The notes under the pieces: generated by a model | The model's input: the letters and a program-made list of their open reading frames with translations, nothing else | Told to the model about the DNA's origin: nothing | Database searches by the model: none | Program-made: the position numbers and the translations under genes | Part shown: positions 39,971 through 45,458 of the stretch, in pieces | Numbering within the stretch: position 1 is the stretch's first letter | Layout of the letters: each line of letters opens with the position of its first letter | Source of the DNA: Sulfuricurvum sp. PD_MW2 | Lineage (GTDB): Bacteria > Campylobacterota > Campylobacteria > Campylobacterales > Sulfurimonadaceae | NCBI RefSeq assembly: GCF_002633015.1 | Contig: NZ_NSIU01000018.1 | Coordinates: forward strand, 1-45,458 | Length of the DNA: 45,458 nt | Direction: 5' to 3'

Positions 39971-40687
39971 TTAATTATTGCAGCTAGATCGTAAAATGTA
40001 TCCAAAACTCAAAATATTTCCTATCTGTAGTAAGGGTACTTTCCTTTTAAGTCTAGAAATGGTATCTCTGATAGTTGAATCCGATACATCTCTGTTTTCC
40101 CATACATGAGCCTTGAGTGTGTCATACGAGAGGTTCTGATTGATATTTCGGCAAAAAAAATCCAGAACATCCAGTTCTTTTTTAGTTAGATTGAGAGAAT
40201 TATTTTGCCAAAACAGCGTTTTACTAGAAAAATGGTAAATGTGACCTTCACCCAAATCAATTGCATCACTATCATTACAAACCGATTGTTTGTCTTCAAA
40301 TCGTTGATGCAGAGAGATCATTTTCAAGGCGACGCCGAGGGCCGCGTCCACATCGTTTTGTTCAAACGGCTTGATCAGATATCCGTAGATATTCCCCTCT
40401 TTGGCTTCGTTGATTGTTCGGCTATCCCCATACGCCGTGGTGAATATCACGGGCAGATCGTATTCTTTGTTGAGCAGTTTACTGCACTCGATCCCATCCA
40501 CAGCACCATCAATATTGATATCCATAAAAGCCAGATTGATCGGTTTGTTTTTGACGATCTCAAGAGCCTCTTTGGCATTTGAGGCTTCATCGATATTTGA
40601 AAATCCGAGTGATTGCAAGATCTTAAATAGATACTTTTGGGCGAAGATTTCATCTTCGACGATTAGTATATTGATCTGTTTATCCAT
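39971..40687 (-). CDS. OmpR-family response regulator beside the exoprotein locus
   Basis: 238 residues from ATG 40687 (GGGG six bases upstream); a TTG one codon earlier is possible. Receiver domain at about 6-118 with acidic Glu11/Asp12, phosphoacceptor Asp56 (AFMDINID), Thr83/Thr84 and Lys106 (LIKPFE). The C-terminal winged helix (about 145-235) has LTKKELDVLDFF and a recognition helix around DSTIRDTISRLKRKV. It overlaps the kinase stop by 8 nt. OmpR-type proteins bind tandem sites 10-11 bp apart, matching the repeat at 42549. It likely controls the divergent exoprotein gene, by inference. Confidence 0.88.
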   Translation of the reverse strand: MDKQINILIVEDEIFAQKYLFKILQSLGFSNIDEASNAKEALEIVKNKPINLAFMDINIDGAVDGIECSKLLNKEYDLPVIFTTAYGDSRTINEAKEGNIYGYLIKPFEQNDVDAALGVALKMISLHQRFEDKQSVCNDSDAIDLGEGHIYHFSSKTLFWQNNSLNLTKKELDVLDFFCRNINQNLSYDTLKAHVWENRDVSDSTIRDTISRLKRKVPLLQIGNILSFGYILRSSCNN

Positions 40688-42515
40688 CAAATTCCCCTGT
40701 TTGAAAACGAAGTGTAAATACTACCCCATCATTCGTATCAAAATGCCAAGTACTATTTGGAAGTTTTTTTGAAAAGCTTTGGATGATATTCATACCTAGT
40801 CCTTCAGTCACGTTCTCCCTTTCAAACCCTTTTCCGTTGTCTTTGATTATCAAAGTTGCGATACCACCTTCATAGGTAAAGTTCACCTCTATTGCAAGAT
40901 TTTTTGTACCCTGATTGTGTTTGAGAGTATTGCTGATAATCTCATTGACAATAATCCCTAGTGATACGACATAATCGAACTTGAAAATGGTATCTTTGAT
41001 ATCTTGATGAAGCTGTACGTGAACCACTTTTTGTGCGGATAGCAGATTGGCGATAATCTCCTCTATGTACTCTTTGATGGGGATATTGTTGATATCTTTG
41101 GATTGATAGAGCTTTTCATGGATCATCGACATTGATTTGATGCGATTGCGAAGATTTTGAAACTTGTTCTCATCCGATGCACCGTTTTGCTCTTCCAGCC
41201 ATAAGAGCCCGATGAGAGTATGAAAATTATTTTTTACCCGATGGTGTACTTCTTTGACCAGCATCTCTCTCTCGCCTAAAAGATTTTCCAGTTGTTCGGT
41301 TCGATTTCTGACCTCGTTTTCCAAAAAAGCCTCATTTTTGCTTTTGATTTCGATGAGTTCACTTTGCGAACGGATAAAATCTTCGCGCATATCGTAATAT
41401 CGGTTTGAGAGGATCAATGAGAATACGATAATCTCAATGACCGAAGCAAATACATAGCCGTACCGTGTTCCAAAAGAGTACTCAAACACCCCTGCTACCA
41501 TAAACGTAAACAGTATCACAAAAGCAAAAAAGGTTACCATCGCAAAGATATAGTATTTGATTTTTTTATGCCCTTCAAGATAGATTATGATGGAGAGTAC
41601 TATCAAAATTAAACTTCCTAGCCCAGCATAATCGTTTATCAGTTTGTTCCATGGCTGATAGGTAAACAAAATCATGATCCCAAAGAAAAAAGCAGGCAAG
41701 GAAAAATAGGGAGCTACTTTTCCGATTCGAGGGAGATACCTTTTCATCTCTAATATTTCAATTGAAAATAGAATTAAAAAACCCATCATAAACGAGGCTG
41801 TAAACTGAAGTTTGTAGATATAGTGCTGTAGATTCAGGTAAACCAGCAGTCCGCTGATATTAATGATGTAGATGAGATTGAAAAAACCGTATCCTACATA
41901 GTAGGCGTAGACTCTCTCTTTGACCTTGAAGTATAAAAAGAGGTTCAAAATCATGATGATAGCTGTAATCCCGAGCAGCAGAAGATAGACCGTATTGATA
42001 TTCAGTAACGTATAAGGGTGGAAATCCTTTTCCTTAGTGAGGGTAATGTATCCGAAATAGGCATATTTCCCTTGAAGTTCCAGATAGAGGCTTTGGGTAG
42101 TATTTTTTGGGATAGTGAGTTTGTATAAGAGTTGATTGGCGTATATCTCCCGTTGACTTACGGGTACAAAAAGGCCATTGTGTTTTTGAATGTATTGATG
42201 ATCTTTCAGGTAATAAAGATTTGCTTTTTCGTAAAAATGTTCTCCGAGACTCAGGACAAAATTTTCATGATCGCTTATATTACGTACATCGATTTTGATC
42301 CACAGTGTCCCTTTTGTATAGCCTAGAGCAAATGCATTGGATGAGTTTCCGAGAAATTTCTGATGCTGAATATCGGCGATCGTGTAGGTGGAGTGTTCAT
42401 CTTTGAGATAAGAAAATCGGAAATCATTGATTGATAGATGTCTGTCGTCTAAAATGAGAGTATTGGCGTGAAGTGTACCGAATAAATAAAGGAGTAAAAA
42501 AAGATACTTGACCAT
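40680..42515 (-). CDS. 7TMR-DISM sensor histidine kinase (HisKA_2 type)
   Basis: 611 residues. Signal peptide (1-17), a periplasmic 7TMR-DISMED2-type beta domain of about 150 residues that often binds carbohydrate, then seven helices (about 173-195, 203-225, 236-256, 266-284, 296-313, 320-344, 354-371). A coiled coil (380-415) leads to the kinase core, with phosphoacceptor motif KEVHHRVKNN at 421-430, the HR-type His425 being the likely site, as in HisKA_2/HWE-like kinases. The N box is around IVNEIISNTLKHN and G boxes around IKDNGKGF and EGLGMNII. The gene overlaps its regulator. No ribosome site precedes the ATG. Confidence 0.9.
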   Translation of the reverse strand: MVKYLFLLLYLFGTLHANTLILDDRHLSINDFRFSYLKDEHSTYTIADIQHQKFLGNSSNAFALGYTKGTLWIKIDVRNISDHENFVLSLGEHFYEKANLYYLKDHQYIQKHNGLFVPVSQREIYANQLLYKLTIPKNTTQSLYLELQGKYAYFGYITLTKEKDFHPYTLLNINTVYLLLLGITAIIMILNLFLYFKVKERVYAYYVGYGFFNLIYIINISGLLVYLNLQHYIYKLQFTASFMMGFLILFSIEILEMKRYLPRIGKVAPYFSLPAFFFGIMILFTYQPWNKLINDYAGLGSLILIVLSIIIYLEGHKKIKYYIFAMVTFFAFVILFTFMVAGVFEYSFGTRYGYVFASVIEIIVFSLILSNRYYDMREDFIRSQSELIEIKSKNEAFLENEVRNRTEQLENLLGEREMLVKEVHHRVKNNFHTLIGLLWLEEQNGASDENKFQNLRNRIKSMSMIHEKLYQSKDINNIPIKEYIEEIIANLLSAQKVVHVQLHQDIKDTIFKFDYVVSLGIIVNEIISNTLKHNQGTKNLAIEVNFTYEGGIATLIIKDNGKGFERENVTEGLGMNIIQSFSKKLPNSTWHFDTNDGVVFTLRFQTGEFDG

Positions 42516-42522
42516 AATATGG

Positions 42523-42531
42523 ATTATACCA
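42523..42531 (-). promoter_or_regulatory. Extended -10 promoter for the kinase gene, implying a leaderless mRNA
   Basis: Minus-strand TGG-TATAAT is a full extended -10. Its TATAAT ends seven bases before the kinase ATG, so transcription should begin at or within a base or two of the ATG. There is no ribosome site in the gap. Confidence 0.5.
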
Positions 42532-42548
42532 TGAAAAAATATGTCAAT

Positions 42549-42570
42549 TTTCCGTCAGCTTTCCGTCAGC
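42549..42570. promoter_or_regulatory. Perfect 11-bp tandem repeat, likely OmpR-type regulator site
   Basis: TTTCCGTCAGC occurs twice with no spacer (42549-42559 and 42560-42570). It lies between the kinase (34 bases from its ATG) and the exoprotein gene (40 bases from its ATG). Two 11-bp repeats in tandem are the format of PhoB-type operators. GTTACGATAAC follows at 42576-42586, where a -10 for the plus-strand gene could lie. Confidence 0.6.
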
Positions 42571-42610
42571 AGTTTGTTACGATAACCCAAAATATAAAAT
42601 CGGAGTATAA

Positions 42611-45458
42611 ATGAAACGACAGATAGAATACAACTCCCGTTTTCGGATACTCAAAGGGGGCAAAATCTCCCTTGTTGTATCGGCACTCTTAGCCGGTTCA
42701 ACCATGAGCTTTGCGGCACCGAGCGGCGGGAGCGTAACAAGCGGTAGCGCAACGATCAACCAAAACGGATCAATCACGACGATCAACCAATCCACGAACA
42801 AAGCTTCAATCAACTGGCAAGATTTCAGTATCGGAAAAACTGAAACGGTCAACTTCGTACAACCATCAGCACAATCAGTTACCTTGAACCGTGTTGTAGG
42901 AACAACCCAATCTCTTATCGAAGGAGCCATGAACGCTAACGGTCAAGTATTTCTTCTTAATCCAAATGGTGTACTCTTCGCTAACGGTGCACAAGTAAAC
43001 GTAGGAGGGCTCGTCGCTTCTACCCTTAATCTTAGCGACGCAAACTTCCAAGCAGGTAACTACACCTTCGAAGGTAACTCCCAAAACTCCATTATCAATA
43101 TGGGAACGATTACTGCCAATAACGGCTATGTTGCTATGATGGGTAAACATGTTGCCAATAAGGGAACCATCGTAGCAACAATGGGAAATGTGCAGATGGC
43201 ATCAGGTGAAAAGATCAGCCTCAACCTAAACGGTAACTCCCTCGTTAAACTCACTATTGACCAAGGAACTATGGATGCATTAGTAGAGAACAAAGGACTC
43301 ATCAAAGCTGACGGAGGTCAAGTCTACCTGACAACCCAAGCCCTCAATACAATTCTTGATGGTATGGTCAACAACACCGGTATCATCGAAGCACAAACAC
43401 TGAACGATGTAACAGGTAAAGTAATTTTATTTGCTCACGGTGGGACAGCTAATATCGGCGGAACCATTGATGCAAGCGCACCCAATGATGGAAATGGAGG
43501 ATTTATTGAAACATCGGGTGACAAAGTTAAAATAGATGATCGTGCTCGTATTATAACCAAGGCAAATCAGGGCATTAGTGGAACATGGTTGATTGACCCT
43601 GTAGATTTTACTATTGCTGCTAGTGGGGGAGATATGACAGGTACAACACTTACAACCAACTTAGCAAACGGTAATGTAATAATCCAAAGCTCACAAGGAC
43701 GCAATGGAACAGATGGTAATATTAATGTAAATGACAGGATCTCTTGGAATACAAATACTTTAACACTAGAAGCTTATCAACATATTAATATCAATGCTAT
43801 TATGCGTGCGACAGGTACAGCCGGATTGGTATTGATTACAGATTCCACAAATCAAAGCAATGGCGGACATGTATTTATAGGTATTGATTATAGTACAGGT
43901 GCATTTAAAGGTAGTATTGATTTAGCTTCTACTTCAAGTATTAATATCAATGGTACGGCTTATACTATTATTAACTCTCTTGGAGCAGAAGGGAGTACAA
44001 CAGGTACAGATTTGCAAGGTATCAACGGTAATTTAAGTGGCAATTATGTACTTGGTTCTAATATTGATGCGGCTGATACAGCTAATACATGGAGTGCTGC
44101 TGGGTTTAATCCTATAGGAAGTAGTTCATCTTATTTTGCAGGTATATTTAATGGACTTGGACATACTATCTCAAATCTTTTGATAGACAGGTCTACAACG
44201 TCTTATATAGGTTTATTTGGTGGTACAATGGGTGCAAAGATTGAAAGTGTTGGATTGATCAATGCAGATATTACGGGTAGAAGTTATGTCGGTGGTTTAG
44301 TTGGATTTGCTACAAATAGCAATCAAATCATAAATAGCTACATAACCGGTTCTGTAGCTTCTACGGCTAATCCTACTTTTTATATAGGTGGTTTAGTTGG
44401 ATACAACCGCAGTTCTAGTTTAATATTCAATAGTTACTCAACTGCGGATGTAACAGTTAGTCATGGTGAATCTGTAGGTGGGTTAGTTGGTGTTAATGAT
44501 GGTTCAGGGATAATGGAAAGCTACTCAACCGGTGATGTAACAGCTAGTAATAATTATGTAGGTGGTTTAGTCGGTTGGAATAAGAATGCTGCATATATAT
44601 CATCAAGCTACTCAACCGGTGATGTAACTGCTGCTCATACAGCAGGTGGTTTAGTGGGTAACAGTGATGGTAGTAGTATAGCTAATAGTTATTCTACTGG
44701 TAATGTAACTGCTGCTGGTCTAGTAGGTGGTTTAGTGGGACAGGTTAGAAGCGGTGAGATAGTAAATAGCTACTCAATTGGTACTGTCGTTGGTACCGAA
44801 ACATATATAGGTGGCTTTGCTGGTTATGGTGCAGGTATAGGAACTAATAGTTTTTGGAATAGCGATACAAGTGGACAATCATCAAATGGACTAGCAGGAA
44901 GTACAGTTATAGGTAAAACAACATCTGAGATGAAATCTTTGGCTACTTTTAATAGTACTACTCCTGCATGGGACATTGTAGAAGACTCATCCCTGTCAAA
45001 TGGTTATCCGCAGCTGAGATGGACGAAATCAGGACTAAATGCGGGAACATCTGTTTGGGTAATAGGCGGAGCCAGACCAACACCTTTAACCCGACCACAT
45101 TATGATATCACAACAATCGTAAATTCAACGGCGGTAACTCCACCCATACCACGAGTTATTGCACCTATAGCACCGAAACCGACTCAAGCACAAATAAAAA
45201 CCACAGAACTCCTACAAACAATGATGCCTAAAGGCGATACTTATAGAGGATCGTACAATCTTGTCGGAACTACTGATGGCAATGCTCCGGTACAAACGGT
45301 AAGCATGGATCAACTCCAAAGTGCTGCTCTCACTCAAGGTGTAGGTGAAATCCGTGTACCTTTGGGGAATGGCAGTGTTGTCGATTTGATTAATGGAGGG
45401 GTAACACTTCCAAAAGGTGTCAGTCAAGAGTTTTATGTAGTAGCAACGAATAGAACAG
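42611..45458 (+). CDS. Two-partner-secretion exoprotein (filamentous haemagglutinin type), 5' part, with GLUG repeats
   Basis: Frame open from ATG 42611 (GGAG five bases upstream) to the window end, at least 949 residues. Basic extended signal peptide of about 35 residues (ending TMSFA). The TPS secretion domain (about 36-280) has the family motif NPNGVLF at 117-123 followed by ANGAQVNVGGLVAST, which TpsB transporters recognise. Then a beta-helix region, and seven GLUG repeats (codons 559-738). A Pro-rich stretch (TPPIPRVIAPIAPKPTQ) begins a further domain. The product would be secreted through a TpsB pore as an adhesin or surface protein. No TpsB gene is in view. It is divergent from the kinase-regulator pair. 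Confidence 0.88.
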   Translation, partial: MKRQIEYNSRFRILKGGKISLVVSALLAGSTMSFAAPSGGSVTSGSATINQNGSITTINQSTNKASINWQDFSIGKTETVNFVQPSAQSVTLNRVVGTTQSLIEGAMNANGQVFLLNPNGVLFANGAQVNVGGLVASTLNLSDANFQAGNYTFEGNSQNSIINMGTITANNGYVAMMGKHVANKGTIVATMGNVQMASGEKISLNLNGNSLVKLTIDQGTMDALVENKGLIKADGGQVYLTTQALNTILDGMVNNTGIIEAQTLNDVTGKVILFAHGGTANIGGTIDASAPNDGNGGFIETSGDKVKIDDRARIITKANQGISGTWLIDPVDFTIAASGGDMTGTTLTTNLANGNVIIQSSQGRNGTDGNINVNDRISWNTNTLTLEAYQHININAIMRATGTAGLVLITDSTNQSNGGHVFIGIDYSTGAFKGSIDLASTSSININGTAYTIINSLGAEGSTTGTDLQGINGNLSGNYVLGSNIDAADTANTWSAAGFNPIGSSSSYFAGIFNGLGHTISNLLIDRSTTSYIGLFGGTMGAKIESVGLINADITGRSYVGGLVGFATNSNQIINSYITGSVASTANPTFYIGGLVGYNRSSSLIFNSYSTADVTVSHGESVGGLVGVNDGSGIMESYSTGDVTASNNYVGGLVGWNKNAAYISSSYSTGDVTAAHTAGGLVGNSDGSSIANSYSTGNVTAAGLVGGLVGQVRSGEIVNSYSIGTVVGTETYIGGFAGYGAGIGTNSFWNSDTSGQSSNGLAGSTVIGKTTSEMKSLATFNSTTPAWDIVEDSSLSNGYPQLRWTKSGLNAGTSVWVIGGARPTPLTRPHYDITTIVNSTAVTPPIPRVIAPIAPKPTQAQIKTTELLQTMMPKGDTYRGSYNLVGTTDGNAPVQTVSMDQLQSAALTQGVGEIRVPLGNGSVVDLINGGVTLPKGVSQEFYVVATNRT
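44285..44824 (+). repeat. Seven GLUG-type protein repeats in the exoprotein
   Basis: Seven copies of a unit built on YVGGLVG, spacer, NSYSTGDVTA, about 24-30 residues each; last copy is YIGGFAG. The DNA is similarly repeated (for example ggtggtttagt recurs). GLUG motifs occur in bacterial surface proteins, including IgA peptidases and adhesins. Such repeats can change number by recombination. Confidence 0.8.

Follow-up and report, generated by a model that had tools for sequence, protein, structure and literature searches.

A tandem repeat as predicted operator of a 7TMR-DISM kinase-regulator pair at secreted-protein genes of Campylobacterota

At the pho box of PhoB, two head-to-tail half-sites 11 bp apart stand in for the -35 element, with the -10 element about 10 bp further downstream. 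Two-component control of a two-partner secretion (TPS) exoprotein gene is known from Bordetella, where BvgAS controls fhaB; BvgA belongs to the NarL type and its sites are laid out differently, and BvgS is an unrelated hybrid kinase. CosR of Campylobacter jejuni, which belongs to the same phylum as the organism studied here, is an orphan OmpR-type regulator with no linked 7TMR-DISM kinase.

The 7TMR-DISMED2 domain of NicD, a Pseudomonas diguanylate cyclase, is reported to bind carbohydrates and has been linked to biofilm formation (PMC8544897). The genome of Arcobacter butzleri encodes HecA/HecB and many two-component systems, for most of which the function was unpredictable (PMC2147049), and a plasmid of A. 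cryaerophilus carries a regulator beside a 7TMR-DISM protein, with an RTX gene further on (PMC6690266). A preliminary description of our locus knew of no described 7TM-DISM kinase controlling two-partner secretion in Campylobacterota. The open-access literature, which leaves most subscription papers outside its scope, likewise yielded no paper in which TPS control in this phylum is connected with both a 7TMR-DISM kinase and an OmpR-type regulator. The proposed control mechanism is of a known kind, and the system and the wider rule proposed below seem to be undescribed in the open literature.

Genes and tandem repeat of the locus

The window is the whole stretch of DNA that was analysed, 45,458 nucleotides from Sulfuricurvum sp. 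PD_MW2. The relevant features are:

39971..40687, minus strand: OmpR/PhoB-type response regulator with receiver and Trans_reg_C domains (Pfam, alignment, model, fold)
40040..40081, minus strand: recognition helix of the regulator, DSTIRDTISRLKRK, model residues 204-217 (model and alignment of 12 orthologues)
40680..42515, minus strand: sensor kinase with 7TMR-DISMED2, 7TMR-DISM_7TM, HisKA_2 and HATPase_c domains (Pfam)
42523..42528, minus strand: predicted extended -10 element of the kinase-regulator operon, TGGTATAAT (TATAAT-like box, as at most divergent loci)
42549..42559, plus strand: half-site 1, TTTCCGTCAGC (read directly)
42560..42570, plus strand: half-site 2, TTTCCGTCAGC (zero spacing after half-site 1)
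42550-42568, plus strand: 19-bp core, TTCCGTCA-N3-TTCCGTCA (defined from conservation across 20 sites)
42578..42583, plus strand: predicted -10 element of the exoprotein gene, TACGAT (9 bp after the core)
42611..45457, plus strand: TPS exoprotein with GLUG repeats, the predicted target (Pfam TPS 6e-34, Glug)

The kinase combines the 7TMR-DISMED2, 7TM, HisKA_2 and HATPase domains of a 7TMR-DISM HisKA_2 sensor kinase, and the regulator reading frame overlaps its stop by 8 bp. That this second gene encodes an OmpR-type regulator was confirmed by the reading frame and by its OmpR-type C-terminal domain. Its Pfam matches (Response_reg 6e-23, Trans_reg_C 4e-10) both exceed the gathering scores, and the receiver Asp together with the winged-helix Trans_reg_C domain place it in the OmpR/PhoB type. 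The phospho-acceptor Asp57 (D57) is invariant in the alignment, and S205, T206, R208, D209, S212 and R213 are invariant in 12 regulator orthologues. There was no equivalog match to any named family, with a score for the PhoB equivalog TIGR02154 of 55 bits against a cut-off of 296 (NCBIfam). The structural model has a mean pLDDT of 82 and a pTM of only 0.56, which leaves its domain arrangement uncertain; fold matches in the PDB were KdpE (KdpE-DNA), PrrA, DrrD, CosR and PhoP. The exoprotein carries the two-partner secretion domain (PF05860, 6e-34; TIGR01901), and its 3' end is cut by the contig end at 45458. The window contig ends inside this gene; in a homologous locus (L115), the next gene encodes a ShlB/FhaC protein (the TpsB type) with POTRA domains.

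A 95-bp gap (42516-42610) separates the kinase start (42515, minus strand) from the exoprotein start (42611, plus strand). As the preliminary description had stated, TTTCCGTCAGC occurs in it twice, head-to-tail and with zero spacing, at 42549-42570. The repeat is exact. Part of its 11-bp unit is spacer that varies between sites, and the core predicted to be recognised, TTCCGTCA-N3-TTCCGTCA, consists of two 8-bp half-sites in the same orientation, 11 bp or one helical turn apart. The TTTCCGTCAGC pair is the sole perfect tandem with a unit of 10-30 bp in the 45-kb window, where one 9-bp unit was found at another position; a perfect 11-bp tandem arose in 23 of 200,000 gaps simulated under a first-order Markov null. 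The genome-wide search for further TTTCCGTCAGC pairs that had been proposed returned none: even when 3 mismatches were tolerated, the 22-mer matched nowhere else in the genome of 2.26 Mb. Single TTTCCGTCAGC sites, with 1 mismatch allowed, numbered 37, compared with 17 for the reversed sequence as control, and included no second tandem; there is therefore no clear regulon beyond the locus. Rfam gave no match at the window site.

The locus resembles PhoB and the pho box in its 11-bp repeat and in its 9-bp offset to the predicted -10 element, both measured here. It differs in its half-site TTCCGTCA, which is not the pho half-site, in its 7TMR-DISM/HisKA_2 kinase, which is not PhoR, in its predicted targets, which are secreted surface proteins, and in a regulator score far below the NCBIfam PhoB cut-offs. 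With BvgAS it would share two-component control of a TPS exoprotein, as proposed here, whereas regulator type, site layout and kinase of the Bvg system are unlike those of the window. The CosR-DNA structure is among the close fold matches of the regulator, but CosR has another site and is an orphan. NicD has the same sensor module, with a GGDEF output in place of the HisKA_2 kinase and DNA-binding regulator found here.

Distribution of the site

A pattern search for the repeat in 397 Campylobacterota genomes, with 2 mismatches allowed, returned just two further copies, in G410 and in G100, which matches Sulfuricurvum sp. PC08-66. In each, the site sits between an orthologous kinase gene and a divergently transcribed gene for a secreted protein, and the mismatches are limited to the letters separating the octamers and the one base adjoining those letters. 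A second approach, which started from kinase orthologues, led to further orthologous operons. In total, the site was present in 16 of the 16 sampled Campylobacterota genomes with an orthologous regulator, spanning Sulfuricurvum-, Sulfurospirillum- and Arcobacter-type lineages. Loss of the repeat from loci that keep kinase, regulator and exoprotein, which the preliminary description had named as evidence against its proposal, was hence not encountered. The recognition helix of the orthologous regulators (STIRDT.SRL) is near-invariant, and it is different in regulators beside other exoproteins.

Across the 16 genomes, the site precedes the divergent gene, the operon or a target set apart from them. 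Its predicted targets are:

TPS exoproteins: window, G048, G241, G313, G410, G430, G438 (which matches Aliarcobacter sp. STC_124), G462
Autotransporters: G241, G380, G422, and G462 (the last from sequence resemblance)
NHL/Ig protein with NHL repeats: G100
Two Ig/cadherin-like proteins: G529
Secreted protein of 1642 aa with ricin-type beta-trefoil lectin domains: G204 (which matches Sulfurospirillum arcachonense, whose type strain DSM 9755 has the site)
Cache-GGDEF protein: G313
Periplasmic-binding-type sensor: G456
Small peptide genes: G451

The genes that follow the site mostly encode large secreted surface proteins. G241 and G462 have two secreted targets with the site, a TPS exoprotein and an autotransporter, and in G313 it occurs on the divergent gene as well as on the TPS gene beyond it. 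Another gene lies between the site and the kinase or target in G313 and G456, and the operon order is regulator-kinase in G204, G451 and G556, where the site is still present.

The half-sites have diverged in about six genomes (G048, G313, G380, G422, G462, G556), with strong divergence in G048 and G313 (ATCCGACAGATTTAAGATA). A helix change from RDT to RDV, RDL or RDI was considered as the driver of this divergence, and is suggestive in G048, G313 and G380; this explanation is not claimed, because G241, G422 and G462 combine RDT with altered half-sites. Four tandem copies are present in G438 and in both G529 loci. These arrays keep the 11-bp register and the octamers while their spacers differ, which suggests selection on the octamer rather than recent slippage.

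Exoproteins up to 89% identical over the N-terminal 330 aa that have no such kinase and regulator beside them also have no motif. The paralogous exoprotein in the window genome is among them, and the second TPS genes of G241, G410, G048 and G313, which are not beside the operon, likewise have no motif. The site hence follows the regulator rather than the exoprotein. A similar kinase with a different regulator, in G618, has no site.

Several observations were made at related loci. The paralogous TPS exoprotein of the window genome (L112; G000:C13:1-15000), with an 89% identical N-terminus, has a direct repeat GGAACTTTTTT; nearby are a 2836-aa reading frame and a further OmpR-type regulator, which has a 7TMR-DISM protein of its own. 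At L104 (G037) and L106 (G006), the conserved gene block known from the flank of the window locus is directly followed by the exoprotein gene. Neither kinase nor regulator separates the two, the repeat there is of a TGCAAC type, and an insertion or loss of the kinase-regulator pair at this spot seems likely. G529 has the whole kinase-regulator-operator locus twice (L127, L130), each before a different large Ig/NHL-like secreted protein. In G451 (contig C53, L144), the site variant TTCCGTCACCATTTAGTCA, with TATAAT 9 bp downstream, precedes a row of small genes, two with leader-peptide-like DELDRVxGG motifs; the one tested had no Pfam match. An exact operator-like site also occurs in Arcobacteraceae (L093:7443-7472), on a contig whose genes include DnaB-like and plasmid-type ParA/ParB ones and whose examined part has no kinase orthologue. 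A search of plasmids for the kinase gave no match.

Pattern matches in Prochlorococcus, Lentisphaerae and others were treated as chance or unrelated. Several Prochlorococcus genomes (L068, L070, L073, L079, L081, L087, L091) have a conserved intergenic element, TTCCGTCAAAATTCCGTCAAAA...AAAACCTAG; in two of them the site was compared with Rfam and gave no match.

Promoter layout and the proposed role of the site

We aligned 20 sites, which had been reached via the kinase or via patterns free of the TA, so that no search required it. The core reads WTCCGTCA-N3-TTCCGTCA in most of them. TAnnnT is located exactly 9 bp after the core in 20 of the 20 sites, some of which come from duplicated or closely related loci and are not fully independent; at other offsets it occurred in 0-4 of 20. 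A direct repeat in the -35 slot at a fixed distance from a predicted -10 element constitutes a pho-box-like class II layout. On the kinase side, most divergent loci have a TATAAT-like box, often with TG in front, at a distance of 18-21 bp, which in the four-copy arrays has to be counted from the far edge of the site, and the operator covers the -35 region of the predicted kinase-regulator promoter. In the window, the predicted kinase -10 element ends 7 bp before the kinase ATG, and the kinase transcript may hence be leaderless. The preliminary description had predicted a regulator site that controls the exoprotein, the kinase operon or both. The alignments support such a site, and the 9-bp distance to the exoprotein -10 element together with the 18-21 bp to the kinase-side TATAAT points to control of both promoters.

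Judged from sequence comparison, the tandem repeat is very probably the operator of the adjacent two-component regulator. The 7TMR-DISM kinase would sense an extracellular cue and phosphorylate Asp57 of the regulator, after which a head-to-tail regulator dimer would bind the two half-sites in the -35 slot and, in the manner of PhoB at a pho box, bring RNA polymerase to the exoprotein gene. A sugar-like cue is a reasonable guess and no more, made because the DISMED2 domain of NicD is reported to bind carbohydrates. The position of the site suggests activation, as opposed to repression, of the exoprotein gene. The same dimer would also sit across the -35 region of the divergent kinase-regulator promoter and may in this way adjust its own operon.

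Short tandem duplications arise easily, and the copy number of the site varies from 2 to 4. Yet, a chance or neutral duplication without function has a negligible probability here, given the simulation result for the window gap alone, the retention of the site in 16 genomes with fixed spacing, and spacers that diverge where the octamers do not. These genomes also encode other OmpR-type regulators, one of which could in principle own the operator and control both genes. We consider such a different transcription factor very unlikely, as the site tracks the orthologues of the adjacent regulator across several families, exoprotein genes without that regulator beside them are also without the site, and 11-bp direct repeats are the expected form for its class.

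The regulator might also mainly control its own operon, or repress the exoprotein gene, without a role in exoprotein activation. The TATAAT at 18-21 bp on the kinase side fits autoregulation, as do G456, where the site precedes a sensor gene upstream of the kinase, and G451, where the site precedes the regulator operon and no adjoining gene is a clear secreted target. However, the invariant 9-bp spacing sits on the target side, and in G241, G313 and G462 the site is retained at secreted targets in arrangements other than simple divergence from the kinase, which makes this reading unlikely.

Other 11-bp repeats at TPS promoters

Exoprotein promoters of the genus without TTCCGTCA usually have another 11-bp direct repeat in about the same place. 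Among 53 TPS promoters, 23 showed at least 8/9 identity at lag 11, where about 2 were expected; other lags were near expectation except for a small excess at lag 10. In contrast, only 6 of 264 other promoters of the same loci set, from which promoters with the TTCCGTCA motif or adjoining TPS promoters had been left out, showed such a repeat (odds ratio 33; Fisher 2.8e-15, an optimistic value because the loci are related). Of 42 further loci, roughly 25 have an OmpR-type regulator upstream at a distance of no more than about 4 kb.

Loci whose regulators have the same recognition helix share a half-site, for example GATGATA in G024 and G003 (whose regulators score below the Trans_reg_C gathering score), TCAAACGC in G371 and G302, and ATGATWTTG in G328 and G350. 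Over all loci, helix and half-site were correlated with r=0.45 (0 of 5000 permutations), and with one locus per class r fell to 0.20 (433 of 5000). This drop implies that most of the signal comes from related loci sharing both, and the data hence argue better for co-inheritance of helix and half-site than for a readable code. As other exoproteins have different 11-bp repeats, the window site is probably one of several private operator types. We regard it as likely, though with some reserve, that TPS promoters of Campylobacterota share an 11-bp repeat in the -35 slot, and that its half-site sequence changes hands along with an OmpR-type regulator dedicated to it, which in most cases is encoded nearby.

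For a conserved two-component system, the analysis predicts regulator, operator and targets from sequence. Outside Campylobacter and Helicobacter, few such regulators of this phylum have been matched to targets. The predicted targets are giant surface proteins from the family that includes the HecA adhesins of Arcobacter, which are listed as putative virulence determinants (PMC2147049). Several regulator types, each with its own 11-bp repeat at promoters that are otherwise equivalent, supply naturally occurring data from which DNA reading by the recognition helices of OmpR-type regulators could be learned. If the wider pattern is true, closely related adhesin genes would be wired to different sensors by swapping private operator-regulator pairs, and TTCCGTCA with the 7TMR-DISM kinase would be the widest-spread such code seen here.
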